A stretch of DNA of 64,000 bases from Stackebrandtia nassauensis DSM 44728 (GTDB lineage Bacteria; Actinomycetota; Actinomycetes; Mycobacteriales; Micromonosporaceae): NCBI RefSeq assembly GCF_000024545.1, contig NC_013947.1, forward strand, positions 4,960,001 to 5,024,000. The letters run 5' to 3'. The notes beneath the pieces were generated by a model. That model was given only the letters and a program-made list of their open reading frames with translations, was not told the DNA's origin and did not search any database. Of the stretch, positions 5,985-34,545 are shown in pieces. The translations under genes and the position numbers were made by a program. How positions within the stretch are numbered: the first letter of the stretch is position 1; each line of letters opens with the position of its first letter.

Positions 5985-7496
5985 GTGGCAAAAGAGACTC
6001 ACACCGTCGCGCCAGCGGCCGAAGCGGACGACCCAGCGGGGTCGCCCGCGACCGACCGACGGCAAGGCGCGGCCAAGCCCAAGCCGGGGGCGGCGACCGG
6101 ATCCGCGCCAGCCGCCGAGCGGAAGCCGCGCACCACGGCACCCGCGCCCGCCACGGACGAGCCGCCGCGCACGGCCGCGCCGAAGCCCGGCACCCTGGCC
6201 GACGAGCCGCCCGCCACCGCCAAACCCAAGCCGGGCACCCCGGCCGTCGGAACCGCAGCGGACGCGCCGCCACGCACGGCCGCGCCGAAGCCCGGCACCT
6301 CGGCCGACGAGCTCCCCGCCACCGCCAAGCCCAAGCCCGGCACCCCGGCCGTCGGAGCCGGTGCCCTGCTTCAGCTGTTGCGGGACGGCGCGCCGCGCAC
6401 CCGCTCCGAGCTGGCCGCCGTCACCGGCCTGGCTCGCTCCACCGTCACCCAACGCGTCGACGCCCTGCTGGCCTCGGGGCTGATCGGCCCCAGCGGCGAG
6501 GCCGCCTCCACCGGCGGCCGTCCACCCACGACCTTCGCCTTCAAGCCGCACGCCCGCGTCGTCCTGGCCGCCGACCTCGGCGCCACCCACGCCCGCCTCG
6601 CCGTCACCGACCTGGCCGGACAGGTCCTGGCCGAGACCCGCGCCGACCTCGACATCGCCGCCGGTCCCCAAACCGTGCTCGACTGGGTCATCGAGCACGG
6701 CCACGCCCTACTGTCCGAAATCGACCGTGACCCCTCCGGCCTGCTGGGCGTCGGCATCGGCCTGCCCGGCCCGGTCGAGCACTCCACCGGCCGCGCCGTC
6801 AACCCGCCGATCATGCCCGGCTGGGACGGCTTCGACGTCCCCCACTACGTCGGCGAACACTTCACCGCCCCGGTCCTCGTCGACAACGACGTCAACATCA
6901 TGGCGCTGGGCGAGCACTTCACCCACTGGCCCGACGCCGAGCATCTGCTGTTCGTCAAGGCCGCCACCGGAATCGGCTGCGGCATCATCTCCGACGGCCA
7001 GGTCTTCCGGGGAGCCCAGGGCGCGGCTGGCGACATGGGACACATCAAAGTGGCCGAACCCGGACCGGTGTGCCGCTGCGGCAACACCGGCTGCCTGGAG
7101 GCGGTCGCCAGCGGCGCCGCCATCGCTGCCGCCCTGGCCGAGCAGGACATCAAAGCCCACTCGGCGCTGGACGTCGTCGAACTCGCCCGCGCGGGCTCGG
7201 TCCCGGCGCTGCGCCTGCTGCGCCAGGCGGGTCGCGACATCGGCGAAGTCCTCGCCGCCGCCGTCAACCTGCTCAACCCCGCCGTGATCGTCATCGGCGG
7301 CTCGCTCGCCCTGGCGGGCGACCACCTGCTGGCCGGAGTCCGCGAGGTGATCTACCAGCGCTCACTGCCGCTGGCCACCCAGCACCTGCGCATCGTGCAG
7401 TCCCGCACCGGCGAACGCGCCGGAGCCGTCGGCGCGGGCGTCATGGCCATCAACCACGGCCTGAGCCCCAGCCGGGTCGACGCGCTGCTCGCCTGA
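5985..7496 (+). CDS. ROK-family transcriptional regulator with a repetitive Pro/Ala/Lys N-terminal tail
   Basis: 503 residues from GTG 5985. Residues 1-124 are low complexity, rich in Pro, Ala, Lys and Thr, including two near-identical 35-residue repeats. A winged helix-turn-helix follows (about 139-168, SELAAVTGLARSTVTQRV), then a ROK domain with ADLGATHARLAV and the zinc motif CRCGNTGCLEA. The family includes sugar-responsive repressors such as NagC and Mlc. It is divergent from the sugar ABC operon and probably controls it. The tail is not part of the family; an alternative start near 6360 (GTG, ALLQLL) would remove it, so the true N-terminus needs checking. Confidence 0.85.
   Translation: MAKETHTVAPAAEADDPAGSPATDRRQGAAKPKPGAATGSAPAAERKPRTTAPAPATDEPPRTAAPKPGTLADEPPATAKPKPGTPAVGTAADAPPRTAAPKPGTSADELPATAKPKPGTPAVGAGALLQLLRDGAPRTRSELAAVTGLARSTVTQRVDALLASGLIGPSGEAASTGGRPPTTFAFKPHARVVLAADLGATHARLAVTDLAGQVLAETRADLDIAAGPQTVLDWVIEHGHALLSEIDRDPSGLLGVGIGLPGPVEHSTGRAVNPPIMPGWDGFDVPHYVGEHFTAPVLVDNDVNIMALGEHFTHWPDAEHLLFVKAATGIGCGIISDGQVFRGAQGAAGDMGHIKVAEPGPVCRCGNTGCLEAVASGAAIAAALAEQDIKAHSALDVVELARAGSVPALRLLRQAGRDIGEVLAAAVNLLNPAVIVIGGSLALAGDHLLAGVREVIYQRSLPLATQHLRIVQSRTGERAGAVGAGVMAINHGLSPSRVDALLA
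6168..6357 (+). repeat. Two tandem 105-bp coding repeats in the ROK gene
   Basis: A unit starting CGCACGGCCGCGCCGAAGCC at 6168 recurs at 6273, a period of exactly 105 bp (35 codons). The second copy runs to about 6357. It encodes RTAAPKPGT ... PATAKPKPGTPAVG twice with few substitutions. The period keeps the frame, consistent with an in-frame duplication. Confidence 0.8.
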
Positions 7497-7502
7497 ACCG
7501 CG

Positions 7503-9050
7503 TCACACGACGTCGAAGTTGGCCATCATCGCCATGTCCTCGTGTTCGAGGTTGTGGCAGTGCAACATGTACCGTCCCTTGTAGCCCTCGAACTTGATCA
7601 GCACCTCGACGACCTCCAGCGGACGCATGTCGACAGTGTCCTTCCAGCCCGCGTCGGTGTCGCGCGGCGGTTTCCCGTCCCGCGACAGCACCTGGAAGTG
7701 CCCCAGGTGCGCGTGCACCGGATGGTGGACATCGGAGATGAGGGTCCACTTCTCGACGGTGCCCAGCTTGATCTTCGCCATCGAACCGCCGGGATCGTAT
7801 GCCTCCCCGTTGATGGTCCACATAGACCCATGACCGGAGACACTGGAGTACTCGAACTTGAACGTCCGCTCGGTGACGGCGTCGGAAGCCTTCAGCGCCT
7901 TGAACGGCACCAGTTCGTCGGGAATGGACGAGTCGTCGTCGACCTTGTCCCCGACCCGAAACCGCATCACCTCGGCCATGTCGTCGGCGCCGAGCTTGTT
8001 GACCAGCGTGATCTCGGTACCCGGCTTGTACTTCGAGAAGTCCACGATCACCTCGGCCCGTTCAGCCGAGGCCAGCACCAGCGACGACAACTCCCGCGGC
8101 TTGTCCAGCAGTCCCACGTCGCTGCCGATGTGCACCAACGGCGCGTCGTTGTCCAGGGCCAGCTCGTAGCGACGAGCGTTGGACGCGTTGAGGAACCGCA
8201 GCCGGTACCGCGCCGCGTCCACGTCCAGCACCGGCCAGGGCGCCCCGTTGACGAGCATCACGTCGCCGAGCACCCCCTCGTGGTATTCGTCCGAGACGCC
8301 GGGCTCACCCATCAGCGTGCCGTCCTTGGACGGGTACTTGAACGCCCCGTCAGCGTGGAACGCGCGGTCGCACAGCATCAGCGGGATGTCGCGCTCCCCC
8401 TTGGGAAGCGGCAGCGCGTCGTCCACGTCGTCGCGGACGATGCAGAACCCGGCCAGCCCCCGCCACACCTGCGGCGCGGTGAAGTCCATCCGGTGGTCGT
8501 GGTACCACAGTGTGGCGGCGGGCTGGTCCAGCGAGTACCCGTAGTCGCGTTGTCCGGTGTGGAGTTTCCACGCGGACGGGTCGTGCTTCATGTGCGAGTG
8601 CCGTCCGGGTTTGAAGTGCCCCCCGTGTCCCTTGGGCACCACCAGATCGGTGGGGAAGCCGTCGGAGTCGGCCGCGGTTACGCCGCCGTGCAGGTGGGTC
8701 GAGGTCGGCACGTCCAGCTTGTTGGCGACGGTCACCGTCACCGGTTCGCCCCGGCGGAGGTCCAGTGTGGGCCCGGGGAACTGCCCGTCGTAGCCCCAGA
8801 TCTCGGTCTTGGTGCCCGGGATGATCTCGACCTTGCGCGGGCGCTGCGTGAACGCGTAGTGCCCGTCCTTGACGGGTTTGGCGGTCTCGGGGATGGGCAG
8901 CCGGACCTTGAAGCGTTCGGGCATCGGGACGTCGCTGGTCAACAGCGCTCCGGTCTGCTGCGTGTCGGTGGCGAAGGCGTAGGTCACGCCTCCGGCGGCG
9001 GCGACTCCGGCGACGGTCAGCCCCAGCTGGAGCAGGCGGCGGCGCTTCAT
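7503..9050 (-). CDS. Multicopper oxidase (CotA/bilirubin oxidase type), Tat-exported
   Basis: 515 residues. The N-terminus MKRRRLLQLGLTV with a hydrophobic stretch resembles a twin-arginine signal, expected for a cofactor-loaded oxidase. Copper ligands are visible in order: HLHGG (about 119-123), WYHDH (about 182-186), HPVHAHLGH and HCHNLEHEDMAM near the C-terminus. This is the full set for a type 1 site and a trinuclear cluster. Substrate is unknown; phenols, bilirubin and metal ions are used in this family. Its ATG overlaps the stop of the small membrane protein upstream, so the two are co-translated. Confidence 0.9.
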   Translation of the reverse strand: MKRRRLLQLGLTVAGVAAAGGVTYAFATDTQQTGALLTSDVPMPERFKVRLPIPETAKPVKDGHYAFTQRPRKVEIIPGTKTEIWGYDGQFPGPTLDLRRGEPVTVTVANKLDVPTSTHLHGGVTAADSDGFPTDLVVPKGHGGHFKPGRHSHMKHDPSAWKLHTGQRDYGYSLDQPAATLWYHDHRMDFTAPQVWRGLAGFCIVRDDVDDALPLPKGERDIPLMLCDRAFHADGAFKYPSKDGTLMGEPGVSDEYHEGVLGDVMLVNGAPWPVLDVDAARYRLRFLNASNARRYELALDNDAPLVHIGSDVGLLDKPRELSSLVLASAERAEVIVDFSKYKPGTEITLVNKLGADDMAEVMRFRVGDKVDDDSSIPDELVPFKALKASDAVTERTFKFEYSSVSGHGSMWTINGEAYDPGGSMAKIKLGTVEKWTLISDVHHPVHAHLGHFQVLSRDGKPPRDTDAGWKDTVDMRPLEVVEVLIKFEGYKGRYMLHCHNLEHEDMAMMANFDVV

Positions 9051-9469
9051 GCCTTGGCCTCCGTTCCGGCGTCACGGACTTCCTTGTTGGTCGCCTGCAC
9101 GAGGTGCACCGATCCGATGGCCATCAGCACCCCGACCGGGAAGTGCAGCGGGTACAGCTGGAACACGCCCAGCAGCGACTGGGCGACGATCAGGCCGATG
9201 AAGGCGAGGTTGCCCCAGACCTCCGATTTGCCGCGACCGCGTGAGCGCACGATCGACAGCACCAGGTGGATCAGGCTCAACAGCACCAGTGCCCCCGCGC
9301 CGATGCCGTGGGCGACGGCGCCGAACACGCTTCCGGTGAACAGCAGGCCGATCCAGACCGGCTGGGCCAGCGTGACCACGGCGATCAGGATCGCGTTGAT
9401 CCGCGTGGTCCGCGCCAGTCCGGTGGCTTTGGCCCGCGTCGCCGGTTCGGCGATGGCGGTCTCGCTCAT
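9047..9469 (-). CDS. Small four-helix membrane protein cotranscribed with the multicopper oxidase
   Basis: 140 residues with a soluble N-terminus of about 20 residues and about four hydrophobic segments (for example AILIAVVTLAQPVWIGLLF). I do not recognise a named family with certainty. Its stop overlaps the oxidase start (ATGA), suggesting a linked role, perhaps as a membrane partner or electron donor site. That role is inference from position only. Confidence 0.7.
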   Translation of the reverse strand: MSETAIAEPATRAKATGLARTTRINAILIAVVTLAQPVWIGLLFTGSVFGAVAHGIGAGALVLLSLIHLVLSIVRSRGRGKSEVWGNLAFIGLIVAQSLLGVFQLYPLHFPVGVLMAIGSVHLVQATNKEVRDAGTEAKA

Positions 9470-9550
9470 CGTTTCACTCCTTAGGGCAGGGGTTCAGAGC
9501 TTTGATTCTGTTGCGGCGGGGTCGTTTCGGCATCGGGCATCGGAGGCGTT

Positions 9551-9567
9551 TTCTACGTACTGTAGAA
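9551..9567. promoter_or_regulatory. Inverted repeat upstream of the multicopper oxidase operon
   Basis: TTCTAC (9551-9556) and GTAGAA (9562-9567) are inverted around a 5-bp centre. The site lies in the divergent gap between the oxidase operon and the sensor kinase gene and resembles a short dimeric repressor operator. No specific regulator can be named. Confidence 0.35.
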
Positions 9568-9675
9568 GAAGTATGGCGGGCCGCTCCACCGGGGCCGCAT
9601 ACTCCCCCGGTATGAGGCCACGACCACTACTTCCGGACGGTGCGATTTGCCCTGAGCTGCCGTAACGTTGCCCCA

Positions 9676-10818
9676 ATGGGCGAAGGCGAACGGCACCAGC
9701 GGCGATGGGACGTCATCGCCGCCGGTGCGGCGACCGCGTTCGCGCTCGCCGCGGTGATCCACGAAATGGACAAGAAGGAGTTCTGGCTTCCGGTCGCGGC
9801 GGCCGTGCCGCTGGCGATACTGACCGGGCTGGCGCTGCTCGCCCGGCGTCGGTACCCGATCCCGGTGACGCTGTTCACCGGCTCGATGACGGTCCTGTTC
9901 ATCGCCTCGGACAGCCGCGCCGGGACCGTGGCCCTCCTCATCGCACTGTACTCATTGGCCAAGTACGAACGCCGCTGGATCGCGATCGTCGCGGGCAGTG
10001 TCGTCATCGTGGTGGGCACGGTGACCGCCGGACTGTCGGGCTCGTGGGAGATGGCCTCGCGGTCGGCGCCGTGGCTGGTCATCTTCCTGGAGGCGGGAAT
10101 CATCGCCGGGGACATCGCCGGACGGCAACAGCGGGCACTGGAGTCGGCCCGATCCCGCGCCGCCGAAGCCGAACGATCCAAAGAGGAACTGGCGCAGCGC
10201 CGGGCCGCCGAGGAACGCGTCCGCATCGCCCGCGAACTCCACGACTCGCTGACCCACGCGATCTCGGTCGTCAACGTGCAGTCCTCGGTGGCGCTGCACA
10301 TGCTCAACCGCCAGCCCGAACAGGCCGAGGCCTCGCTGCGCAACATCCGGGCGGCCAGCCAGGACGCGATGCGGGAACTGCGGGCCACGCTGCGAGCCCT
10401 GCGCATGACCGAAGGCGACTCCACCCCCGGCATCGACAGCCTCCCCGCGCTGGTGGAACGCTCCGCGCTCACCATCGCCATGGACATCAGCCCCGACCGG
10501 CAAGCGCTGCCCGAGACCGTCGACCGCACCGTCTACCGGATCGTGCAGGAGGCGCTGACCAACTCCACCCGGCACGCCCGGGCCAGTGCCGTCGACATCT
10601 CTATTGTGGTCGATGATGAGTCGGTGACGACGACCATCACCGACGACGGCATCGGCCCCGCCCCCGAAGGCGTCGCCGAAGGGCTGGGCCTCATGGGAAT
10701 GCGCGAACGCGTCGCGGCACTGGGCGGCGACCTGCGCCCCGGCCCCGGCCCCGACGGCGGCTTCCAGGTCCGCGCCGTCCTGCCCCTGACCGAGACCGAA
10801 GCCAAGGAGCTGACGTGA
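9676..10818 (+). CDS. Two-component sensor histidine kinase (NarL/DesK-type)
   Basis: 380 residues from the ATG at 9676; an upstream in-frame start at 9640 is possible but looks non-coding. About four or five hydrophobic helices occupy the first 120 residues, followed by a coiled stretch and a HisKA_3 phosphoacceptor region (IARELHDSLTHAI). The ATPase domain has TITDDGIGP and GLGLMGMRERV. The kinase autophosphorylates on His and passes phosphate to the response regulator encoded next, whose GTG overlaps this stop. No extracellular sensor domain is visible, so the signal is probably membrane-borne. Confidence 0.9.
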   Translation: MGEGERHQRRWDVIAAGAATAFALAAVIHEMDKKEFWLPVAAAVPLAILTGLALLARRRYPIPVTLFTGSMTVLFIASDSRAGTVALLIALYSLAKYERRWIAIVAGSVVIVVGTVTAGLSGSWEMASRSAPWLVIFLEAGIIAGDIAGRQQRALESARSRAAEAERSKEELAQRRAAEERVRIARELHDSLTHAISVVNVQSSVALHMLNRQPEQAEASLRNIRAASQDAMRELRATLRALRMTEGDSTPGIDSLPALVERSALTIAMDISPDRQALPETVDRTVYRIVQEALTNSTRHARASAVDISIVVDDESVTTTITDDGIGPAPEGVAEGLGLMGMRERVAALGGDLRPGPGPDGGFQVRAVLPLTETEAKELT

Positions 10819-11480
10819 CCCGGGTACTTCTCGCCGACGACCAGCCGCTGATCCGCGCCGGATTCCGGGTCCTGCTGGACGCCGAGGACGACATCGACGT
10901 GGTCGGTGAGGCCTCCACCGGCGCCGAGGCGGTGGACCTGGCCCGCGAAACCGTCCCCGACATCGCCCTCGTCGACGTCCAGATGCCCGAAATGGACGGC
11001 ATCGAGGCGACCCGCCGCATCGCCGCCGATCCCGCCCTGTCCTCGGTACGAGTGGTGATCCTGACCAACTACGCCCTCGACGAGTACATCTTCGACGCGC
11101 TGCGCGCCGGAGCCAGCGGCTTCCTCGTCAAGGACACCGAACCGGAGGAACTGATCCGCGCGGTCCGCACCGTCGCCGTCGGCGAGGCCCTGCTGGCCCC
11201 CAACGTGACCCGACGCCTGATCGCCGAGTTCGCGGCCACCCCACGCGTCGACGGCCCGGCCCCGCTGGTCTCAGCACTGACACCCCGCGAACGCGAAGTG
11301 GTGACCCTGGTGGGCCAGGGCAAATCCAACGAGGAGATCTCCCGGCTACTGCACATCAGCCACACCACCGCCAAAACCCACGTCAGCCGCGCCATGACCA
11401 AACTGGGTTCCCGCGACCGCGCCCAGCTGGTCGTCGCGGCCTACGAGTCAGGCCTGGTCGTACCCCGCGCCTCTGCCTAG
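10815..11480 (+). CDS. Response regulator, NarL/LuxR family
   Basis: 221 residues. An N-terminal receiver domain carries the acidic pair LLADDQP and phosphoacceptor Asp in LVDVQMPEMDG, plus the Lys of FLVKDTEP. A C-terminal LuxR-type helix-turn-helix follows (LTPREREVVTLVGQGKSNEE). The GTG start overlaps the kinase TGA, so the pair is translationally coupled. Targets are unknown; the neighbouring multicopper oxidase operon is a reasonable candidate by position. Confidence 0.93.
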   Translation: MTRVLLADDQPLIRAGFRVLLDAEDDIDVVGEASTGAEAVDLARETVPDIALVDVQMPEMDGIEATRRIAADPALSSVRVVILTNYALDEYIFDALRAGASGFLVKDTEPEELIRAVRTVAVGEALLAPNVTRRLIAEFAATPRVDGPAPLVSALTPREREVVTLVGQGKSNEEISRLLHISHTTAKTHVSRAMTKLGSRDRAQLVVAAYESGLVVPRASA

Positions 11481-25381: not shown

Positions 25382-26371
25382 ATGGAGCGGCGCCAGGTTG
25401 GGGTTTACCTGGGGGCGTTGGTCGTGGGTGGGTTGATGGGGTGGATGCTGCCGTCGGTGGGGGCGGGGTTGGGGTTGGCGGTCAATCCGGTTTTGGGTGC
25501 GTTGTTGTTGGTGACGTTTCTTCAGGTTCCGGTGGGCAGGTTGGTGGGGTCGCTGCGGGATGGGCGGTTTGTGGCGGCCGTGTTGGTGGTCAATTTTGTT
25601 GCGGTGCCGTTGGTGGTGGCGGTGTTGTGGGTGTTGTTGCCAGCCGACGAGGCGGTGCGGGTTGGGGTGCTGTTGGTGTTGTTGACCCCGTGTGTGGATT
25701 ACGTGATCGTGTTCAGTGGGCTGGCCGGGGGGTCGAGTCGGCGGTTGTTGGCCGTGACGCCGTTGTTGTTGATCGTTCAGATGGTGTTGCTGCCGGTCTT
25801 CTTGTGGCTGTTCATGGGTGCGGGGTTTGCCGATGTTGTCGCGTTGGGGCCTTTTGTTGAGGCGTTTGTCGTGCTGATCGTTGTGCCCCTGGTTGTGGCG
25901 TGGGTTGGGCAGGGTTGGGCCGCGCGGTGGGCGACTGGTGCCAGGGTTTTGCGTGCGGCTGGCATGTCGATGGTGCCGCTCATGGCAGTCACCTTGGCCA
26001 TGGTGGTTGCTTCGCAGGTGCCTGAGCTTGACGGTGAGCTGGGGGCTGTCGGTGGTGTCGTTCCGTTTTACGTTGTGTTCTTTGTGGTCATGGTTTTCGT
26101 CGGGCGTGCTGTCGGGCGGGTGTTTGGGCTTGGGGTGGCCGCGGGGCGGGCGGTGGTGTTTTCGGGGGTTACCCGGAATTCGCTGGTGGTGCTGCCATTG
26201 GCGTTGGCGTTGCCCGGGGAGTTGGCCGCGGCCGCGGTTGTCGTTGTGGCGCAGACGATGGTTGAGGTTTGCGGGATGGTCGTTCTGGTTCGCTATTATC
26301 GGGCGCCAGTGGGACAGTTCGCTCTCGGACGAGGATCGGATGCGGGACAGCGGGACTCGGGACGCCAGTAG
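25382..26371 (+). CDS. ACR3-like arsenic resistance transporter (BASS superfamily)
   Basis: 329 residues with about ten hydrophobic helices. The start MERRQVGVYLGALVVGG is chosen from family similarity. LLVLLTPCVDYVIVFSGLAG is the key stretch: the cysteine of TPC corresponds to the arsenite-binding Cys region of ACR3-type exporters. Actinobacterial relatives are annotated as arsenic resistance or bile acid:sodium symporter-like proteins. It follows a MerR-type regulator and overlaps the patatin gene by 32 bp. Substrate is inferred. Confidence 0.75.
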   Translation: MERRQVGVYLGALVVGGLMGWMLPSVGAGLGLAVNPVLGALLLVTFLQVPVGRLVGSLRDGRFVAAVLVVNFVAVPLVVAVLWVLLPADEAVRVGVLLVLLTPCVDYVIVFSGLAGGSSRRLLAVTPLLLIVQMVLLPVFLWLFMGAGFADVVALGPFVEAFVVLIVVPLVVAWVGQGWAARWATGARVLRAAGMSMVPLMAVTLAMVVASQVPELDGELGAVGGVVPFYVVFFVVMVFVGRAVGRVFGLGVAAGRAVVFSGVTRNSLVVLPLALALPGELAAAAVVVVAQTMVEVCGMVVLVRYYRAPVGQFALGRGSDAGQRDSGRQ

Positions 26372-27446
26372 GGGTGGGTCGGCGCGTGGTGGTGCGCTGT
26401 GGGCGGATGACCATCCGGTGTTGGTGGCATTGCGGGGTAGGCGTGACAGCGGGGCGGTTCCCGGGGAGCGGTCGGACGGGTTGAAGATTGGGCTCGCTGT
26501 TGAGGGTGGGGGTATTCGGGGGGTTGTTTCGGCGGCCATGTTGAGCGCGTTGGAGGACTTGGGTTTGACCAATTCCTTTGACGCGGTGTATTCGGCGTCG
26601 TCGGGCGCCATCAATGCGGCCTATTTCATGATCGGGGGTAGTTGGTATCCGCTCTCGATTTACTACGACGACCTGACTACGCGGCGGTTCATGGACTTTC
26701 GGCGGTTCTTTCGCGGGAACATCCTGGATCTGGACTACGCGTTCGGGGTCGTGGTTGATCAGTTGAAGCCGCTCAGTTATGAGGCGGTGATCAGGTCGCC
26801 GATCCCGTTGCGTATCGCGGTGACGTTGGCCGATGAGATTCGGACCGAATTGGTGGGCGACTACACTTCCGCGGCGGATTTGCGGGAGGCGCTGGTGGCG
26901 AGTGCTTGGTTGCCGGTCGCTTTGCGGGGTACCACGGATTTTCGGGGTAGGCGGGCGGTGGACGGGGGTGTGCTGACGCCGCATCCGTATCGGTTGGCGT
27001 TGGATGACGGGTGTACGCATGTGTTGTCGTTGAGTACCCGGCCGATGGGGTCGCCGCGGGATCGGAACTCGCTGGCGCACCGGTATGGGGTGTGGCATTT
27101 GAATCGGATTCGGGACGGGTTGGGGTCGGCGTACTTGCGGGCGTTTCGGGGGTATCCGGCTGAGCGGGAGATGTTGCGGCAGCGGAGGGTGGAGGTGGGG
27201 GACGCTCCGTATGTGCTGGATCTGGCGCCGTTGCCGTGGATGCCGGAGGTCAAGCGGCATGAGATGGATCCCGGGCGGATCATCGCGGGGGCCCGGGGTG
27301 CCTATGAGGTCATGTACTGCGCTGTGGAGGGGCGGGATCCGGGGCTGATTCGGGCGGGGGGCGTGCGGGCGGTTCCGCGTCTGACCATTGTGGCTAAGGA
27401 CGATGGTGGGGCTGACGGCCGGGATGTGTTGCGGCCGAACGGTTGA
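26340..27446 (+). CDS. Patatin-like phospholipase
   Basis: 368 residues from ATG 26340. The patatin oxyanion motif is EGGGIRG, the nucleophile Ser lies in YSASSGAINA (GxSxG-like, with SSG) and the catalytic Asp in RRAVDGGV. This Ser-Asp dyad hydrolyses acyl chains of lipids. The C-terminal part with LSLSTRPMG and a helical tail fits the bacterial cytoplasmic DUF6363-type subgroup. It overlaps the transporter gene and ends 129 bp before the radical SAM gene; a link to that cluster is possible but unproven. Confidence 0.85.
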   Translation: MRDSGTRDASRGGSARGGALWADDHPVLVALRGRRDSGAVPGERSDGLKIGLAVEGGGIRGVVSAAMLSALEDLGLTNSFDAVYSASSGAINAAYFMIGGSWYPLSIYYDDLTTRRFMDFRRFFRGNILDLDYAFGVVVDQLKPLSYEAVIRSPIPLRIAVTLADEIRTELVGDYTSAADLREALVASAWLPVALRGTTDFRGRRAVDGGVLTPHPYRLALDDGCTHVLSLSTRPMGSPRDRNSLAHRYGVWHLNRIRDGLGSAYLRAFRGYPAEREMLRQRRVEVGDAPYVLDLAPLPWMPEVKRHEMDPGRIIAGARGAYEVMYCAVEGRDPGLIRAGGVRAVPRLTIVAKDDGGADGRDVLRPNG

Positions 27447-27455
27447 TAGCTGGGT

Positions 27456-27474
27456 AATCCCCTTTGGGGGGATT
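27456..27474 (+). terminator. Inverted repeat after the patatin gene
   Basis: AATCCCC (27456-27462) and GGGGATT (27468-27474) are inverted around a short TTTGG loop, 10 bp after the patatin stop. It could end that transcript or insulate the radical SAM gene. There is no T-run. Confidence 0.4.
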
Positions 27475-27495
27475 GTCCACATCCGGTCAGAATCG

Positions 27496-27524
27496 TTGCC
27501 GAGGCGATTACTGGTCGTTACCTT
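27496..27524 (+). promoter_or_regulatory. Candidate promoter of the RiPP operon
   Basis: TTGCCG (27496-27501), a 17-bp spacer and TACCTT (27519-27524) precede the radical SAM start at 27576 by about 50 bp. The match is modest. Confidence 0.3.
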
Positions 27525-27575
27525 CGAGTGGCGCGATTCGATCTCGTTCACCACACCATTCGAAGGGATCTCGAC

Positions 27576-28961
27576 ATGCCCACTAGCACAACGGAAACAG
27601 CGGAAGTCTACGTCGCGTCCAGATACATTAGTCTGTCGCATGAGGATGACGGTGCGATGACGCTGCACTCGGCGCGGACCGGGGCCATCGGTGTGGTTCC
27701 GCCGGACGATGTCGACGCGGCGCGGACGGCGTTGAAACCGCGCACCGAGACCCCAGGGCCGCTGAAGGGGATCCATGCCGATCTGCTGAAGGGCGGGTTT
27801 CTCGTTCCAAAGGGGACGAATGAGGCTTATCTCGTCAACGATTCGTATCAGACCAGGTATCTGGAACGTGGTCTGCATCTGATCGTGATGCCCACCGAGC
27901 AGTGCAACTTCCGGTGTGTGTACTGCTATGAGTCGTTCAAGCGTGGCGAGATGTCGCCGGAGGTCGAGGCGAGTGTCCGCAAGCTCGTGGACGGTCAGCC
28001 GGATCTGGATCACCTGACGCTGTCGTGGTTCGGCGGCGAGCCGCTCATGGCTCGTGAGGTGGTGTTCCGGCTCACCGATTACCTGCGGGCCAGTTGCGCC
28101 AGGCGGGGTGCGACGTTCCTGTGTCACGCCACCACCAACGGGTACTACCTGGATCCGGATTATGTCGATCGGGTGGTTCCGGCGGGCCTGCAGCACTTCC
28201 AGATCACTTTGGATGGTGTGCAGGAGGAGCACGACAAGCGGCGGATCTCCGCTGACGGTGAGCCCACGTTCGACAAGATCTGGGGGAACCTGCGGTATCT
28301 GCGCAAGAGTGACCACGAGTTCACCGCGTCGATCCGGCACAACTACGACCCGGACAACTTCGCCCGCTTCGACGAGTTCATCGAGATGCTGCGGGCCGAG
28401 TTCGCCGGGGACTCGCGGTTCGCCGTGGAGCTCAGCCCGATCGGCAAGTGGGGTGGCGCCAACGACGACAACCTCAACGTATGTGAGGGCCGCGATCTGG
28501 TCACCAGCCTGTTCGAGGCGAAGCGCAAGCTCAGCGCCATGGGGTTCCGTGACTCGCTGGCCATGTCGATGATGGAGCCCAACGGGTCGACGTGTTACGC
28601 GGCCAATCCGCGGTCGTTCGTGATCGGGCCGACGGCGGAGCTGTACAAGTGCACCGTCGAGTTGGACTATCACGATCGCAATGTGGTGGGGCGGCTGCTT
28701 CCGGACGGGACGTTGGATCTCGACTGGAAGAAGATGGCACTGTGGACCGAGACCGATGGTATGGACGAGGGCAAGAAGTGCACCACGTGTTATTTCCGGC
28801 CCAGCTGTCACGGGGCGGTGTGCCCCAAGGAGTGGATGGACGAACCCGAGTGCGGCTGTCCACCGGTGAAGCTCGGTATCGGCCAGCAGCTCAACCTGAT
28901 TCGCACCGAGAGCCTGTTCCAGAAGCCCGTCAACGCCGGACCAACCTGTCCGCGCGGGTGA
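27576..28961 (+). CDS. Radical SAM/SPASM peptide-modifying enzyme
   Basis: 461 residues from ATG 27576 (ribosome site GAAGGGA). Residues 1-100 form an N-terminal domain of the kind seen in SPASM peptide maturases (GFLVPKGTNEA). The radical SAM cluster ligands are C110, C114 and C117 (CNFRCVYC), followed by FGGEPL and HATTNGYYL. The C-terminal SPASM region holds many cysteines (TCYAANPRSF, LYKCTVEL, CTTCYFRPSCHG), enough for two auxiliary 4Fe-4S clusters. Such enzymes make thioethers, C-C links or epimerise residues in ribosomal peptides. It directly precedes two tiny Cys-ending peptides, its probable substrates. The exact reaction cannot be read from sequence. Confidence 0.92.
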   Translation: MPTSTTETAEVYVASRYISLSHEDDGAMTLHSARTGAIGVVPPDDVDAARTALKPRTETPGPLKGIHADLLKGGFLVPKGTNEAYLVNDSYQTRYLERGLHLIVMPTEQCNFRCVYCYESFKRGEMSPEVEASVRKLVDGQPDLDHLTLSWFGGEPLMAREVVFRLTDYLRASCARRGATFLCHATTNGYYLDPDYVDRVVPAGLQHFQITLDGVQEEHDKRRISADGEPTFDKIWGNLRYLRKSDHEFTASIRHNYDPDNFARFDEFIEMLRAEFAGDSRFAVELSPIGKWGGANDDNLNVCEGRDLVTSLFEAKRKLSAMGFRDSLAMSMMEPNGSTCYAANPRSFVIGPTAELYKCTVELDYHDRNVVGRLLPDGTLDLDWKKMALWTETDGMDEGKKCTTCYFRPSCHGAVCPKEWMDEPECGCPPVKLGIGQQLNLIRTESLFQKPVNAGPTCPRG

Positions 28962-29015
28962 TCGCCTCGGCGCCACCCGCGAAGTTCTGACCGACGTCGA
29001 AGGGAGGTGAAAACC

Positions 29016-29093
29016 ATGGTGTGGATTTCCGAAGGAAGCAGCGGTTCGATGGCTCAGGAGCAGACCGCCAACAACAACTGTGGCATCTGCTGA
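29016..29093 (+). CDS. RiPP precursor peptide 1 (25 residues)
   Basis: A strong ribosome site (AGGGAGGTGA, 29001-29010) precedes an ATG opening 25 codons. It begins MVWISEGS, has a Gln/Ala/Ser-rich middle and ends NNNCGIC then TGA. The second small gene shares the first eight residues and the end, so both are real. Cys22-Gly-Ile-Cys25 at the very C-terminus fits the substrate of the neighbouring EpiD/CypD-like decarboxylase, which acts on C-terminal Cys. With only about 25 residues it is one of the shorter precursors. Confidence 0.85.
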   Translation: MVWISEGSSGSMAQEQTANNNCGIC

Positions 29094-29148
29094 TTCGATG
29101 CGTCGCGCCTGTCAGGACGCGAACAACTGAGGATTGGAGGTGACAACC

Positions 29149-29226
29149 ATGGTGTGGATTTCGGAAGGCAGTGACGGCACGCTCGTCACCAAGTCGACCG
29201 GCAAGAACAACTGCGGCATTTGTTAG
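29149..29226 (+). CDS. RiPP precursor peptide 2 (25 residues)
   Basis: A second 25-codon gene with ribosome site GGAGGTGA. It starts MVWISEGS like its partner, then differs (DGTLVTKSTGK) before ending NNCGIC and TAG. DNA identity with gene 1 covers the ribosome site and leader codons and falls off in the middle, showing duplication with divergence between conserved ends. The conserved leader probably recruits the modifying enzymes and CGIC is the probable modification site. Confidence 0.85.
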   Translation: MVWISEGSDGTLVTKSTGKNNCGIC

Positions 29227-29313
29227 CCACCTCATCGTCCGTCGGACTCGGCGCCCTCGCATGGCCCGCCGGTCCGGCGGACCTCCATCATATCCACCCG
29301 AAAGGTTTCCACT

Positions 29314-30012
29314 GTGTATAGTTCGCTGCCCTGTAAGCGGCTGCTGGTCGGCATCGCCGGTTCCATCCACGCCGTTCACGTGCCCGAGTACCTGTTGCGT
29401 TTCAAGCGAGAGTTCGCCACCGAGATCCAGGTGATCATGACCCGTTCGGCGGGCAACATGGTCAACCCCCAGGTCCTGGAGGTGTACACCGACGGCGATG
29501 TCGTCGACGACATGTGGGGCAACGCCACCCTCAAGGCACCGCACATCCGGCTGACCCGGTGGGCAGAGCTGTTCCTGGTGCTTCCCGCTACCGCCAACAT
29601 CATCGGCAAGACCGCCAACGGGATCGCCGACGATCTGTTGTCGACGGCGATTCTGGCCAGCCCGCATCCGGTGGTGTTCGCCCCGGGCATGAACCCGGCG
29701 ATGTACGACACCCCGGCCGTGAAGCGGAATCTGGCTACATTGGAGGCCGACGGGCACTATGTCATCCACCCGGAGGAGCTCACCTCGGTGACCTCCGGGG
29801 AGTACGACACCGGCTACGGGCCTACCACGGACCTCGTACTGAAGCACCTGTGGCATGTCCATATGCGACGGGTCAAGGAAGGGTACTGGGACGAGGCCAC
29901 GGCCGCCGAGCCCGAGAGCCCCTCGATCACCGGAGCCGACACCGGCGTGGGCACCAACCTCAAGTCACTGCCGCTCACTCCCGTGAACGGCGCCGCGAAA
30001 CCGGCCGGATAG
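29314..30012 (+). CDS. EpiD/CypD-like flavoprotein, peptidyl-cysteine decarboxylase
   Basis: 232 residues from GTG 29314 (ribosome site AAAGG). It is a homo-oligomeric flavin-containing cysteine decarboxylase (HFCD) protein: LLVGIAGSIHA near the N-terminus, active-site His in APHIRLTRWAE (H77), PATAN (91-95, the PASANT motif) and PGMNPAM (124-130, the PxMNxxMW-type clamp). EpiD, MrsD and CypD oxidatively decarboxylate a C-terminal Cys to an enethiol that forms aminovinyl-cysteine. Coenzyme A Dfp/CoaC is the alternative, but the 25-residue Cys-ending peptides just upstream make the RiPP role far more likely. The C-terminal 40 residues are Ala/Ser/Pro-rich and dispensable-looking. Confidence 0.88.
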   Translation: MYSSLPCKRLLVGIAGSIHAVHVPEYLLRFKREFATEIQVIMTRSAGNMVNPQVLEVYTDGDVVDDMWGNATLKAPHIRLTRWAELFLVLPATANIIGKTANGIADDLLSTAILASPHPVVFAPGMNPAMYDTPAVKRNLATLEADGHYVIHPEELTSVTSGEYDTGYGPTTDLVLKHLWHVHMRRVKEGYWDEATAAEPESPSITGADTGVGTNLKSLPLTPVNGAAKPAG

Positions 30013-30015
30013 CGG

Positions 30016-31245
30016 ATGTCGCGGCCATCGTCGCGACTGCGCGACCTTCCCGCGACGTACTGGCGGCTGTGTGTCTCGCACGGCATCTCGTCATTCGGCG
30101 ACTTCCTGCGGATGACGACGATCGCGTTCTGGGCCTACGAGGCTTCGGACGGGTCGGCCGCCGCGGTGGGAGCGTTCGCGACCACAGAACTGTTGGTCGC
30201 CATGGTGAGTGGCTCGGTAGCGGGGGTCATCGCCGACCGCTGGAACCGGGTCACGGTGATGATCGCCTCGGACTTCGGGCGGGTGGCCACCGGGGTGGTG
30301 CTGGTGGCCGCGGTGGTGTGGAACCACATTCCGGCCGCGGTGGTCGCGGTGGCGGCGTCCGGGTTCCTCACGGCGCTGTTCACGACCTGCCGGGGAGCGT
30401 TGCTGCCGGGGGTCGTGCCGCGTGAACTGTTGGCGCGCGGGAACAGTCTGATGATCACCGTGGAGCAGGTCGCGGTGGTCGCGAGCCCGGGGATCGCCGC
30501 CGTCCTGTTCGGAACCCTGGGTGCCGCGCCCGCGCTCGTCATCGACGCGTTGTCGTTCCTGGTGTCCGGGGTGCTGATCCTGGGCTTGCGGTATCGCGAG
30601 CCCGCACCAAGCGGGGAGGACGAGGACGGCGAGGCGGAATCGTCGCGCAACGGCGCGGCGGTCAACTGGCTCGTGCCGGTGGGGTTCGCGGTGGCCGCGC
30701 TGGCGGCGATGATGTATCAGTTCGGTGCCAACAGTTCCACGCTGGTGGCGTTCCTGCCCGAGGACCTCGACCGTCCCGTCACCGACGCGTTCTGGTTCGC
30801 GATGGTCTCCGGCGCGATCCAGTTGTTCGCCGGGACGCTGTTGTCGGCGTTGGCACATCGGCTGCGCCTGCGGGCCACGATGGTGCTGTCGGCGGCGTGC
30901 GTGATGGTGGGCGGTTGGACACTCGCGTACGCGCCCAACCTGTTCACGGCCGTTGCCGGGGTCGGGATCATCGCGTGCGCGAACATCCCGTTCCGGGTCG
31001 CGTTCGAGACCCTGCCGCAGCTGCTGGTGCCCTCGCGGGTGCTCGGCCGGGTGATCGGGGTCGTCAAGAGTGTCAGCGCCTCGGCGTTCATCGCGGGAAC
31101 CCTTGGCGGCGGCCTGATCGCCGACCAGGCGGCGCCGCGCACCAGTCTGGTGGTCTCGGCGCTGATCCTCAGTCTGGGTGCGCTGTTGAGCCTGGGCCTG
31201 TTGACCAGGACGGTCACCAGGGCACCGAAGACACCGGTCGGATAA
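30016..31245 (+). CDS. MFS transporter, probable peptide exporter
   Basis: 409 residues with about twelve hydrophobic segments in two halves and an acidic central loop (SGEDEDGEAESS). The MFS loop motif is GVIADRWNRVTV. It resembles the MFS_3/enterobactin exporter-like group. It starts 3 bp after the decarboxylase stop, so it belongs to the operon and probably exports or gives self-resistance to the mature peptide. No dedicated leader protease is visible in the locus. Confidence 0.85.
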   Translation: MSRPSSRLRDLPATYWRLCVSHGISSFGDFLRMTTIAFWAYEASDGSAAAVGAFATTELLVAMVSGSVAGVIADRWNRVTVMIASDFGRVATGVVLVAAVVWNHIPAAVVAVAASGFLTALFTTCRGALLPGVVPRELLARGNSLMITVEQVAVVASPGIAAVLFGTLGAAPALVIDALSFLVSGVLILGLRYREPAPSGEDEDGEAESSRNGAAVNWLVPVGFAVAALAAMMYQFGANSSTLVAFLPEDLDRPVTDAFWFAMVSGAIQLFAGTLLSALAHRLRLRATMVLSAACVMVGGWTLAYAPNLFTAVAGVGIIACANIPFRVAFETLPQLLVPSRVLGRVIGVVKSVSASAFIAGTLGGGLIADQAAPRTSLVVSALILSLGALLSLGLLTRTVTRAPKTPVG

Positions 31246-31334
31246 ATCTGTCCTTATCCGGACATGGGTGTATCTGGATCGCTACTGTTGCCTCTATCTA
31301 GTTAGTTGAGTGAGATCGGGCTATGTCGCCAGGC

Positions 31335-31347
31335 ACTCCTTAGGAGT
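31335..31347. promoter_or_regulatory. Palindrome covering the ribosome site of the LuxR-type gene
   Basis: ACTCCT-T-AGGAGT (31335-31347) is a perfect 6-bp inverted repeat whose right arm contains the AGGAG ribosome site, 9 bp before the ATG at 31356. In DNA it could be an operator; its 1-nt centre makes a simple RNA hairpin over the ribosome site less likely without opening of inner pairs. Confidence 0.4.
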
Positions 31348-31355
31348 TACCAACG

Positions 31356-31679
31356 ATGGCAGACAAGCCTTCCAAGGGTCTCGACATCGGGCCCTTGCAT
31401 GAAGTGCGACGACAGCAGACCTGCGGAGCGTGTCCATACAACACGGTCAACCCCCACGCTCCCCGACCGGCGCTAACGTCACGACAGCTTTGCGTGCTTT
31501 CGGCTATCGCGAACGACTGGACGGACAAACGTATCGCCAAACTTCTGCAGCTGAGCGATCGTCAGGTCCGACGCGAGATCTCGCGCATGTGCGAGATCCT
31601 TGGGGTTTCCAGCCGGATCCAGTTGGTCGCCATCGCACTGCGCCTCGGCATCCTGCCGTGGTCCGCCTTGGGGTGCTGA
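31356..31679 (+). CDS. Short LuxR-type helix-turn-helix regulator
   Basis: 107 residues. The C-terminal half is a GerE/LuxR-type HTH (LTSRQLCVLSAIANDWTDKR, then IAKLLQLSDRQVRREISRMC). The N-terminus has a CxxC pair (TCGACPYN, C23 and C26) instead of a receiver or ligand domain, so it may sense redox state or bind metal. It follows the RiPP exporter gene by 110 bp and is the last plus-strand gene before a strong terminator. It is a plausible cluster regulator, by position only. Confidence 0.8.
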   Translation: MADKPSKGLDIGPLHEVRRQQTCGACPYNTVNPHAPRPALTSRQLCVLSAIANDWTDKRIAKLLQLSDRQVRREISRMCEILGVSSRIQLVAIALRLGILPWSALGC

Positions 31680-31755: not shown

Positions 31756-32481
31756 TCAGCGCCGGGAAAGCCTGCGCAGCAACAGGATCACCAGGACGGC
31801 GCCGTACGCGGCCCCGGTAAGCGTGTAGGGCCAGTGATTGCCACCGTCCATCATCACCCAGAACGCCTTCGCGGCCCAGAACGGCGGCAGCACCCCGAAC
31901 AGCAGTCCCAGCGGCGAGTCGATGAACCACGGCACCAGGGGGACCATGAACACCAGCATCCCGGCGGCCCGGAACAGTGCCAGGCCCTCGACCTTGTTCT
32001 TCGCCAGCAGCGCGATGGTCGTCGCCAGGATCGCGGTGGTGGCTCCGGCCACGACGGTGATCGGTATCGCCGCCACGATGGACTCGGAGTCCATGCGCCG
32101 CGACAGTGCCAGCGCCGCGATCTCGAACACCGGGGTGATCGCGATCAACAGCAGCACCCGGTACAGCGGATACGCCAGCGGCGGAGCCGGGGTGACCCGC
32201 AGCGCGCTGAGCGTGCGCTGGTCCTTGTCCTCCAGCAACAGCATCCCGCCGATGCAGCCCAGCACCGCCGCCGGGCCCAGGATCTGGAAACCGCTGATCG
32301 CCAGCGGGTAGTAGGGCACCAGGTCGAAGCCGTAGAGCCGGTCCAGCAGTCGGGTGATCGGCGGCAGCAGCCACATCATGACCGAGTACAGGAACGGCCC
32401 GAACACGATGCCCGCGAGCATGGTGTCGCGGCGGATGTTGCGGATGTCGTTGCGGCCGAACGCGGCCACGGTCGTCCACAT
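31756..32481 (-). CDS. ABC-2 type transporter permease (second)
   Basis: 241 residues with about six transmembrane helices. MLLLEDKDQRTLSALRVTP is the amphipathic loop conserved in ABC-2 permeases. It is the last gene of the operon, starting 1 bp before the stop of the other permease. With that permease and the ATPase it should form an exporter for a drug, lipid or peptide; the cargo is unknown. Confidence 0.82.
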   Translation of the reverse strand: MWTTVAAFGRNDIRNIRRDTMLAGIVFGPFLYSVMMWLLPPITRLLDRLYGFDLVPYYPLAISGFQILGPAAVLGCIGGMLLLEDKDQRTLSALRVTPAPPLAYPLYRVLLLIAITPVFEIAALALSRRMDSESIVAAIPITVVAGATTAILATTIALLAKNKVEGLALFRAAGMLVFMVPLVPWFIDSPLGLLFGVLPPFWAAKAFWVMMDGGNHWPYTLTGAAYGAVLVILLLRRLSRR

Positions 32482-32482
32482 G

Positions 32483-33205
32483 TCAGCGACCCCCTTCCCG
32501 CTTCACGACGTGGCGGTAGAACGCCCGCCGCGCCCACAGTGTCAGCAGCACGATCCACAGTAGTGAGGACCCGATCGCGTAGACGTAGTCCCACACCTCG
32601 AACCGCGACTGTCCGAAGGACTCTCCGAGCAACAGCAGACTGCCCTGGGTCGGCGCCAGGTACAGCGCCGGACTTTCCCACAGTCCGGAGTAGAACGCCA
32701 TCGGCAGGCTCAGCACCGCGATCACGGCGGTGGACGGGATGATCCAGTCGCTGATCGACGTGAACGGAGTCGCGGAGATGAAACTGGCCAGCAGGCACAC
32801 CAGTGAGCACAGGACCGTCCCCAGCAAGAGAGTCACCGGGTCGAAGTCGAGACCGACTCCGGAGACCGTGATGAGGAGGGTCAGCACCAGGCTCAGCAGG
32901 CTCAATGTCGTCAGTTTGGATGCCAGGTAGTCACCGAACCGCATCGGTGTGGTCACCACCGCGTCCAGGGTGCGTTCCCCGCGTTCGAAGAACACCGCCC
33001 CGGCCAGGAAGAAGAAACCGACGATGCCCAGGTCGCCGAAGATCAGGTACGGCATCGCCGGTCCCTGGAGTGGCTCGGGCAGGATGATCACGATGGCGTC
33101 CCACAGCACCGCCGAGAACGCCGCCGCGTAGACGAAGCCGTAGCGCCACTGCAGTCGCAGGTCGAGCCGGAAGGCGGCCCGCGCGGTGATCGGGATGAGG
33201 CTCAT
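32483..33205 (-). CDS. ABC-2 type transporter permease (first)
   Basis: 240 residues, about six helices. The start MSLIPITARAAFRLDLRLQW is set by the ATGA overlap with the ATPase stop. The conserved segment FFERGERTLDAVVTTPMR is the ABC-2 family loop. It is the membrane partner of the ATPase encoded just upstream. Confidence 0.85.
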   Translation of the reverse strand: MSLIPITARAAFRLDLRLQWRYGFVYAAAFSAVLWDAIVIILPEPLQGPAMPYLIFGDLGIVGFFFLAGAVFFERGERTLDAVVTTPMRFGDYLASKLTTLSLLSLVLTLLITVSGVGLDFDPVTLLLGTVLCSLVCLLASFISATPFTSISDWIIPSTAVIAVLSLPMAFYSGLWESPALYLAPTQGSLLLLGESFGQSRFEVWDYVYAIGSSLLWIVLLTLWARRAFYRHVVKREGGR

Positions 33206-34065
33206 GTCAGGGCCCTTCCGGTGACGTCGATGAACACGTCGTCCAGGTCGGCTTCCTGACTGTGGACGGCTTCGACGGCGCGCGAGTTCATCAGCTCCCG
33301 GAACTCGGCGTCCGCACCGAGCCCGTCCATCGGGAAGTCCTTGACGGCCAAGGATTCCCCGCTTCGGTAGGTCACGGTGACGACGCGTTTGCTGCGCGAC
33401 AGCTTGTGCTCGGCCGGGGTGTCGAGGGCGGCGATGCGGCCGTCCACGACGAACGCGACCCGGTCGCACAGTTCGTCGGCGGTGCGCATGTCGTGTGTGG
33501 TCAGGAAGATCGTGCGTCCCTCGGAGCGCAGCTCGGTGATGATGTCCTTGATGACGCGGGCGTTGTTGGGGTCCATTCCGGAGGTCGGCTCGTCCAGGAA
33601 CAGCAGTTCCGGTCGGTGCAGCAGCGCCCGGACGAACACCAACCGCATCTGCATTCCCTTGGAGTACTTGGCCACCCGAGTGTGGGCGGCGTCGGCCAGT
33701 CCGACGCGGTCCAGCAGCGTCATCGGGTCCTCGGTCTTGCCGGGGTACAGGGACGCGAAGAACTCCAGGTTCTCCCGTCCGGTGAGTTTCAGGTAGTGGT
33801 TGGGAAGCTCGAAGGACACTCCGATGTGGCGGTAGTAGTCGGACTTCCACGCCGCGGGGTCCTTGTCCCACACCGATACCGTGCCGCCGTGTCCGCGCAG
33901 CAGTCCGGTGAGGATCTTCTGGGTGGTGGACTTCCCGGCGCCCGAGGGGCCGAGGAATCCGAATATCTCGCCGGAGGCGACGCCGAAGCTCATGTCGCGT
34001 ACGGCGGGGGTCTTCGACTTGGGGTAGGTGAAGCTGAGACCGTCAATCGAGATGACGTGACTCAT
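33202..34065 (-). CDS. ABC exporter ATP-binding protein
   Basis: 287 residues. Walker A is LGPSGAGKSTT, signature YSKGMQMRL, Walker B LLFLDEPTSGMD and the switch His is in LTTHDM. The C-terminal extension of about 80 residues is typical of DrrA/CcmA-type exporter ATPases. It is in one operon with the GbsR/MarR regulator (6 bp upstream) and two permeases. Confidence 0.92.
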   Translation of the reverse strand: MSHVISIDGLSFTYPKSKTPAVRDMSFGVASGEIFGFLGPSGAGKSTTQKILTGLLRGHGGTVSVWDKDPAAWKSDYYRHIGVSFELPNHYLKLTGRENLEFFASLYPGKTEDPMTLLDRVGLADAAHTRVAKYSKGMQMRLVFVRALLHRPELLFLDEPTSGMDPNNARVIKDIITELRSEGRTIFLTTHDMRTADELCDRVAFVVDGRIAALDTPAEHKLSRSKRVVTVTYRSGESLAVKDFPMDGLGADAEFRELMNSRAVEAVHSQEADLDDVFIDVTGRALT

Positions 34066-34071
34066 GGGGAA

Positions 34072-34545
34072 TCACTCTTTCTGCATCTGCCGCCACTTGT
34101 TCTCTATTCGGGCGTACTCGGTGGCGAGAAACGAGTACATGTCGCGCATGTCGCGAAGTCGTGCTCTGCTGTCCTCGGAGGAATCGGCCATGGTGGACAA
34201 TCCACGTTCGGCGAGCTTGACCGCCTCCTCGGCGACCTTGGCCTTCTCGGAGGCCTCGTTGAGCCAGAAACCGGGCCGGATCCGGTAGTAGATCCGCCGC
34301 GACCCCGGCACCGGATACCGCTCGACCACCCCGGCGCGTTGCAGGTACTGCGTGGCCATGCTGATCGAGCCCCGGCTGGTCGTGAGGGCTTCGGCCAGTT
34401 CCTCGGCGGACTGGTGTTCGGGTTCGCACACCAACAGCCATCCCAGGACGCGCCCCGGGATGCGGGGCAGCCCTTTGGATTCCATGTACAGGCCGAGCTC
34501 TTCGGCGAAGGCGTGCCGTTCGGTCCGGTCCTCATCAGTGCTCAT
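34072..34545 (-). CDS. GbsR/MarR-family transcriptional regulator
   Basis: 157 residues. The winged HTH region reads SAEELAEALTTSRGSISMAT with the wing VERYPVPGSRRIYYRIRP, and ends in a coiled C-terminal helix pair. This layout is shared by GbsR/OpcR-like repressors. It leads the ABC exporter operon and is probably autoregulatory; an inverted repeat upstream is its likely site. Confidence 0.85.
   Translation of the reverse strand: MSTDEDRTERHAFAEELGLYMESKGLPRIPGRVLGWLLVCEPEHQSAEELAEALTTSRGSISMATQYLQRAGVVERYPVPGSRRIYYRIRPGFWLNEASEKAKVAEEAVKLAERGLSTMADSSEDSRARLRDMRDMYSFLATEYARIENKWRQMQKE

Follow-up and report, generated by a model that had tools for sequence, protein, structure and literature searches.

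A radical SAM and HFCD flavoprotein cassette with Cys-ending precursor peptides, present twice in the Stackebrandtia nassauensis genome

A compact gene cassette for a ribosomally synthesized and post-translationally modified peptide (RiPP) was analyzed in a 64,000-nucleotide stretch of the Stackebrandtia nassauensis DSM 44728 genome (NC_013947.1, positions 4,960,001 to 5,024,000, forward strand), the whole of which is referred to as the window. The cassette combines a radical S-adenosylmethionine (SAM) enzyme, a flavoprotein of the homo-oligomeric flavin-containing Cys decarboxylase (HFCD) family, two tiny precursor genes and a major facilitator superfamily (MFS) transporter gene, and a second, diverged precursor/radical SAM/HFCD/MFS cassette lies about 1 Mb away. 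Probably, the HFCD makes an enethiol of the C-terminal Cys of the precursors, the sulfur of which is then linked to the β-carbon of a conserved Asn by the radical SAM enzyme. The initial annotation of this DNA had listed a SPASM radical SAM gene, two precursor genes, an HFCD gene, an MFS gene and a LuxR-type gene, and all of these, with their motifs and coordinates, were found in the window:

27576..28961 (+): radical SAM/SPASM peptide maturase P0001, 461 amino acids, with CNFRCVYC; Pfam Radical_SAM, 9.9e-18
29016..29093 (+): precursor peptide 1, 25 residues, MVWISEGSSGSMAQEQTANNNCGIC; ribosome site GGAGGTGA; C-terminal Cys; only silent changes in leader and core relative to precursor 2
29149..29226 (+): precursor peptide 2, 25 residues, MVWISEGSDGTLVTKSTGKNNCGIC; ribosome site GGAGGTGA; assigned on the same basis as precursor 1
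29314..30012 (+): HFCD flavoprotein P0004, 232 amino acids, GTG start; Pfam Flavoprotein, 1.1e-26; H77, PATAN at 91–95, PGMNPAM at 124–130
30016..31245 (+): MFS transporter P0005, 409 amino acids; Pfam MFS_1, 3.6e-23
31356..31679 (+): short LuxR/GerE-type helix-turn-helix protein P0006, 107 amino acids; Pfam GerE, 6.4e-08

The sequence GGAGGTGA stands five bases before the ATG of each precursor gene, and both peptides start with MVWISEGS and end with NNCGIC. Outside residues 9–19 (residues 1–8, residues 20–25 and the stop codon), the two genes differ in seven codons, all silently, while within residues 9–19 the amino acid is changed in 9 of 11 codons, with Thr17 the same residue in both peptides within this otherwise variable segment. 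Because of the strong ribosome sites and the silent changes in leader, core and stop codon, the two tiny genes are judged from sequence to be real precursor genes, and the same distribution of changes (silent throughout leader, core and stop codon, replacing in the linker) points to purifying selection on the leader (MVWISEGS) and the core (NNCGIC), with a freer linker.

The genome (6,841,557 bases, one contig) holds just one other close relative of the radical SAM gene, within the second cassette (G000:C1, about 6.010–6.014 Mb), which was examined as locus L010 (G000:C1:6003001-6021000) and spans L010 positions 7652–11106:

L010 7652–7723: precursor peptide, 23 residues, MEWIVEISSEPAHRTYDNGNCVC; single copy, ending NGNCVC
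L010 7835–9184: radical SAM gene; product 53% identical to P0001
L010 9181–9900: HFCD gene; product 43–44% identical to P0004
L010, open reading frame (ORF) from 9943: MFS gene, after the HFCD gene; product 30% identical to P0005

The order of genes differs, with the precursor placed first in the second cassette, and this together with the divergence argues against a recent duplication. When the genome was searched with precursor 2, the two window copies were the only hits, and the 23-residue precursor went undetected. Across the three precursors (two in the window and one in the second cassette), residues M1, W3, I4, E6, S8, N21, C22 and C25 are invariant, all end in Cys, and seven residues intervene between the last Thr and the final Cys in each. 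A survey of 3745 short ATG-initiated ORFs (18–60 amino acids, one per stop codon) in 853 kb of DNA, made up of 97 sequences with some loci overlapping, gave no distinct cases with an NC-X(1-2)-C ending other than the two window precursors and the one beside the second radical SAM gene, so that chance is not the explanation of these ORFs.

P0001 carries a CX3CX2C motif at residues 110–117 (C110/C114/C117) and cysteines in the SPASM region at C340, C359, C402, C405, C411, C416 and C428; in an alignment of 8 sequences, C110/C114/C117 and seven further cysteines were invariant. The canonical SPASM spacing is CX2CX5CX3C, from which the spacing in P0001, CX2CX5CX4C, differs by one, and no SPASM model matched P0001 in the Pfam scan. 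The best NCBIfam model was TIGR04463, at 189.7 bits under a 525-bit cut-off (160.7 bits for the second copy), and no curated cut-off was reached among the models listed (best 25 of 70 for P0001, best 25 of 57 for the second copy). Among these listed models, the nearby peptide maturase families were TIGR04463, Clo7bot, CefB, geopeptide, PapB and CcpM, and the nearest maturases include the ranthipeptide (PapB) and thioether-forming SCIFF families. P0001 shares with the PapB, SCIFF and TIGR04463 maturases the radical SAM domain, SPASM-type cysteines, short Cys-containing precursors and similarity at the family level, whereas it falls below every cut-off among the 25 best of 70 models and is accompanied by an HFCD. 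The best solved relative was 5wgg/5why (1e-15), of which 5wgg is presumably CteB. An AlphaFold model of P0001 alone was poor (mean predicted local distance difference test score 45.2) and was not used.

For P0004, the closest solved relatives were MrsD (3e-35) and the flavoproteins 7cfu (6.6e-31) and 6jls (1.9e-24), followed by 1qzu (1.3e-20), EpiD (2.8e-18) and CoaBC 6tgv (1.2e-17). Enzymes of the HFCD family carry an active-site His, a PA(T/S)ANT-like motif and a PxMNxxM motif, and H77, PATAN and PGMNPAM of P0004 align with MrsD and are also present in a five-row alignment, placing P0004 in the HFCD/LanD family (PF02441). P0004 is a probable peptidyl-cysteine decarboxylase, an assignment that rests on the similarity to MrsD and on context, including the Cys that ends all three precursors, since the best NCBIfam model is that of CoaBC, with the CypD model far behind.

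Lanthipeptide genes were sought across the whole genome, and no LANC_like or Lant_dehydr_N match was found within 250 kb of either cassette, in agreement with the earlier statement that no lanthipeptide dehydratase or cyclase gene is present. None of the seven LANC_like and three Lant_dehydr_N matches in the genome falls inside the window; the closest is over 600 kb away from it, and every one is separated from the second cassette by more than 250 kb. The dehydratase and LanC-type cyclase in the cluster that mark lanthipeptides of classes I–IV were thus not found, and class V genes were not sought genome-wide. In a Pfam scan of eight neighboring proteins, none resembled a lanthipeptide dehydratase or cyclase or a linaridin enzyme, CypH and CypL not having been searched by name. 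In peptides with S-(2-aminovinyl)cysteine (AviCys), the enethiol adds to a dehydrated Ser or Thr. An ordinary AviCys ring could in principle arise here if a Ser or Thr of the precursor were dehydrated in trans by a remote lanthipeptide dehydratase and attacked by the enethiol, with the radical SAM enzyme serving an unrelated role; HFCDs serve such pathways in other bacteria, the genome does carry LANC_like and Lant_dehydr_N genes, and Thr17 is identical in both window precursors. Set against this are the distance of those genes from either cassette and the position of the last Ser/Thr, Thr17, eight residues before the Cys in the variable segment, with none in the conserved core, and this route is considered very improbable. 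As listed in a passage of PMC11162475, the RiPPs with AviCys or AviMeCys (its 3-methyl counterpart) are lanthipeptides with LanD, linaridins, thioamitides, lipolanthines and lanthidins; the window cassette differs from these in having no LANC_like or Lant_dehydr_N gene nearby, in having a radical SAM enzyme instead, and in the absence of Ser/Thr from the conserved core.

The gene content, the real precursors, the recurrence as a unit in this genome and the enzyme families are observed; the two reactions and the sequence in which they take place, the choice of Asn, the cleavage of the leader and the export of the product are inferred. In this model, the C-terminal core N-N-C-G-I-C of the two precursors would be the substrate of both the radical SAM enzyme and the HFCD, which the leader MVWISEGS would guide. 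Oxidative decarboxylation of the C-terminal Cys by the HFCD would leave an enethiol (−46 Da). The radical SAM/SPASM enzyme would abstract a hydrogen from the β-carbon of a conserved Asn, the likeliest being Asn21, which immediately precedes the inner Cys. Bonding of this carbon to the enethiol sulfur (a further −2 Da, −48 Da in total) would close a C-terminal ring containing S-(2-aminovinyl)-3-carbamoylcysteine (AviCamCys). The leader would be removed by a protease encoded outside the cassette, and the product exported by the MFS protein. Asn is proposed as the crosslink partner because the conserved core is devoid of Ser/Thr, no LANC_like or Lant_dehydr_N gene is near, and the published enzyme pair yields AviCamCys. 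The initial annotation had both enzymes acting on the same peptides; the part of this that concerns a single RiPP unit stands, given that the cassette recurs and LANC_like and Lant_dehydr_N genes are distant, and the enzymatic action itself is a prediction.

To judge by its title and by the sentence citing it, the report of Cheng, Huang, Duan and Liu (Angew. Chem. 2023, 62, e202308733) is said to describe AviCamCys formed by a radical SAM enzyme and a LanD flavoprotein. By its name, AviCamCys would be an Asn whose β-carbon bears the sulfur of a decarboxylated Cys. The citing passage, in PMC11162475, states that flavoproteins collaborate with radical SAM enzymes to give this residue, with Cheng et al. 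2023 as its source. By a definition taken from that sentence, with Asn deduced from the name, the window holds what an AviCamCys system needs (radical SAM and LanD-type flavoprotein genes, and precursors with a C-terminal Cys and an upstream Asn). The two systems are alike, as far as that passage goes, in having a LanD/HFCD flavoprotein and a radical SAM enzyme act on a ribosomal peptide, and the C-terminal Cys and conserved Asn of the window precursors could supply the carbamoylcysteine half. The suggestion that the class may be undescribed is therefore not upheld, since PMC11162475 cites the pairing to 2023; on that passage, the locus is a further example of a reported enzyme pairing and not a new class. 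The chances are real both that it represents a variant of the AviCamCys kind and that it is identical with, or close to, the locus published in 2023. Papers that name both 'Stackebrandtia nassauensis' and 'RiPP' include two on a PEARL in a nonribosomal peptide synthetase–polyketide synthase (NRPS-PKS) cluster and one on formate dehydrogenase chaperones. New here are the occurrence of the cassette twice within a single genome and the existence of distant radical SAM relatives that lack an HFCD and have precursors with (D/N)xxC ends.

These relatives came from radical SAM searches of 61, 397, 394, 346, 200 and 200 genomes (cut-offs of 1e-40 to 1e-60), samples that overlap. With the own genome counted where included, matches were found in 1 of 61 relatives, 1 of 397 genomes of the order, 6 of 394 of the class, 1 of 346 of the phylum, 6 of 200 of family f31 and 3 of 200 of the own family. 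Search sensitivity varied, in that genome G017 was unmatched at 1e-40 among the 61 and was found with a two-row profile at 1.5e-46. In all, nine other genomes gave radical SAM matches, and all nine were examined in context.

Seven of the loci, from actinomycetes (L016–L020, L083 and L084), encode radical SAM enzymes 37–40% identical to P0001, and no HFCD match was found in the 12.9–14.5 kb fetched around each. Short acidic precursors, seven peptides in all, were found in six of the seven (L016–L019, L083 and L084); no precursor was found beside the radical SAM gene of L020. Their ends (IDFGC, IDFNC, INIIC, IDIFC) contain a single, C-terminal Cys, and in all seven peptides an Asp or Asn stands exactly three residues before it; the peptides were chosen for ending in Cys beside a radical SAM gene, with the Asp/Asn position outside this filter, and they are homologous and hence not seven independent events. 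The six loci with precursors resemble the window in their radical SAM enzymes and in the C-terminal Cys of their peptides, whereas they have no HFCD match (13.3–14.5 kb covered around each), mostly Asp in place of Asn, and one Cys only. The (D/N)xxC ends agree with an enzyme family that may join Cys to Asp or Asn. At L016 and L019 at least, the next gene after the radical SAM gene is a beta-propeller-like one, as read from translations. In genome G1320 (L087), neither an HFCD nor a precursor was identified. G017 (L088) belongs to the same family and to a different genus. Its radical SAM gene (6392–7699, minus strand; product 27% identical) is TIGR04463-like and is followed by an MFS gene; upstream of it lies a gene for a Cys-rich 32-residue precursor with NCGC and NCSC motifs (8087–8185, minus strand), and no HFCD was found at this locus.

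Several observations weigh against an AviCamCys-type ring. An HFCD gene stands beside none of the nine radical SAM relatives in other genomes. For P0004, the best NCBIfam model is CoaBC (138.7 bits, under a cut-off of 219.7), compared with 31.4 bits for CypD (cut-off 215), and 1qzu, which we take to be human phosphopantothenoylcysteine decarboxylase, outranks EpiD among solved relatives. In the window precursors, Asn is four residues before the last Cys (N-C-G-I-C), compared with a distance of three for the Asn of the second cassette (N-C-V-C) and for the Asn or Asp of the distant relatives, implying either a larger ring or the use of another Asn. Finally, the inner Cys could itself be a substrate, because the L088 precursor, with no HFCD, has two NCxC motifs and no C-terminal Cys.

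The scores of P0004, and the occurrence of HFCDs beside non-RiPP pathways too, would fit a paralogue of the coenzyme A pathway or another small-molecule thiol enzyme that came into the operon by chance. The genome, however, carries its own CoaBC, MrsD is the best solved match of P0004, and an HFCD accompanies a radical SAM gene and Cys-ending precursors twice, making such an origin most improbable of all. The separate CoaBC is 30% identical to P0004, compared with 44% for the HFCD of the second cassette, and scores 85.7 bits on a profile of the two cassette HFCDs (which themselves score 473 and 469, by construction). An extra Cys known from some CoaC enzymes is lacking in P0004, as it is in the genome's own CoaBC. 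With CoaBC located elsewhere, P0004 was dropped as a candidate CoA-pathway gene.

The inner Cys bears on another account, in which the two enzymes make independent modifications: the radical SAM enzyme would form a thioether from Cys22, as in sactipeptides or ranthipeptides, and the HFCD would turn Cys25 into an enethiol that is left free, oxidized or attacks elsewhere. This would fit the conservation of Asn-Cys in all three precursors, the HFCD-free relative L088, in which NCGC and NCSC stand at a distance from the C-terminus, and the ranthipeptide maturases among the nearest families of P0001. It is nonetheless unlikely, as the only Cys of the IDFGC-type relatives is C-terminal, so that the enzyme family evidently can use a C-terminal Cys, as C-terminal enethiols are described as unstable in a passage of PMC12291118, and as the published enzyme pair makes one joint residue, according to that of PMC11162475. 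A variant of the crosslink between the C-terminal Cys and Asn is possible and no more than that: an older radical SAM RiPP family, in which the C-terminal Cys is crosslinked to Asp or Asn at (D/N)xxC, may have acquired the HFCD. In this genome the outcome would be Asn-specific cassettes that have a second, inner Cys and, for the window copy, a ring enlarged by one residue, with a product distinct from the published AviCamCys peptide and possibly bicyclic (an enethiol crosslink plus a modified inner Cys).

The initial annotation had also proposed a search of genomes for HFCD genes beside SPASM genes, and had named a lack of co-occurrence in other genomes as grounds for refutation. That outcome was obtained in part: both instances of the pair come from this genome, none of the nine relatives elsewhere has an HFCD beside it, and the exact radical SAM and HFCD pairing was seen only here. 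A search of 394 genomes with the HFCD gave 92 matches outside this genome, of which 10 were examined in context, showing two weak CX3CX2C motif matches (L066 and L071) and no P0001-like gene; the remaining matches were assigned to CoaBC, judging by how far they extended and by the length of their frames. A contig scan with P0004 gave seven loci only, at 38–41% identity in unrelated phyla, also taken as CoaBC. Two distant HFCDs were found by alignment search in viral contigs, with no P0001-like genes in the fetched flanks. Among plasmid records, 140 had HFCD-like matches (134 with the second copy) and 13 had radical SAM matches; 9 and 8, respectively, were opened, and tblastn found no P0001-like gene at the nine HFCD loci and no HFCD at the eight radical SAM loci. 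One plasmid, Sinorhizobium meliloti pAK76 (L024, 4947–9355), has an HFCD gene beside that of a B12-type radical SAM protein of a different kind from P0001 (nearest models PhpK and rSAM_ocin_1, below cut-off), together with a 72-residue ORF ending GGQNC and a 2-oxoglutarate–Fe(II) (2OG-Fe(II)) oxygenase gene; this is apparently a separate association of HFCD and radical SAM enzymes, in a different RiPP.

The MFS gene begins 3 bp after the HFCD stop codon, and its product P0005 probably serves in export or self-protection. The LuxR/GerE-type gene, which had been counted as part of the locus, has no match at the second cassette in the comparison with L010; it was dropped as a core component and is probably adjacent to the cassette and outside its core. 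A patatin-like phospholipase gene (window 26385–27446) directly upstream of the radical SAM gene is probably unrelated to the cassette, because it too has no significant match at the second cassette. A minus-strand ORF (26169–28976, 935 amino acids) that spans both this gene and the radical SAM gene was not accepted as a gene, since it seems to owe its existence to high G+C content. On the other side, at window 31756–34545, genes on the minus strand are oriented toward the cassette; among them are those of an ATP-binding cassette (ABC) transporter ATPase and of probable permeases, together with a MarR-type gene.

The mining rule given in a passage of PMC11162475 expects a Ser/Thr and the final Cys to be separated by 2 to 6 residues. 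It would miss both cassettes, because in each of their three precursors the spacing between the last Thr and the final Cys is seven residues. The two cassettes, with precursors of 25 and 23 residues, two enzymes and one transporter, would form a compact pair in which to study flavin-dependent decarboxylation and radical chemistry in one ring, and their HFCD-free (D/N)xxC relatives lead to the evolutionary proposal that the radical SAM enzyme may first have joined Cys to Asp or Asn, with the decarboxylase added later.

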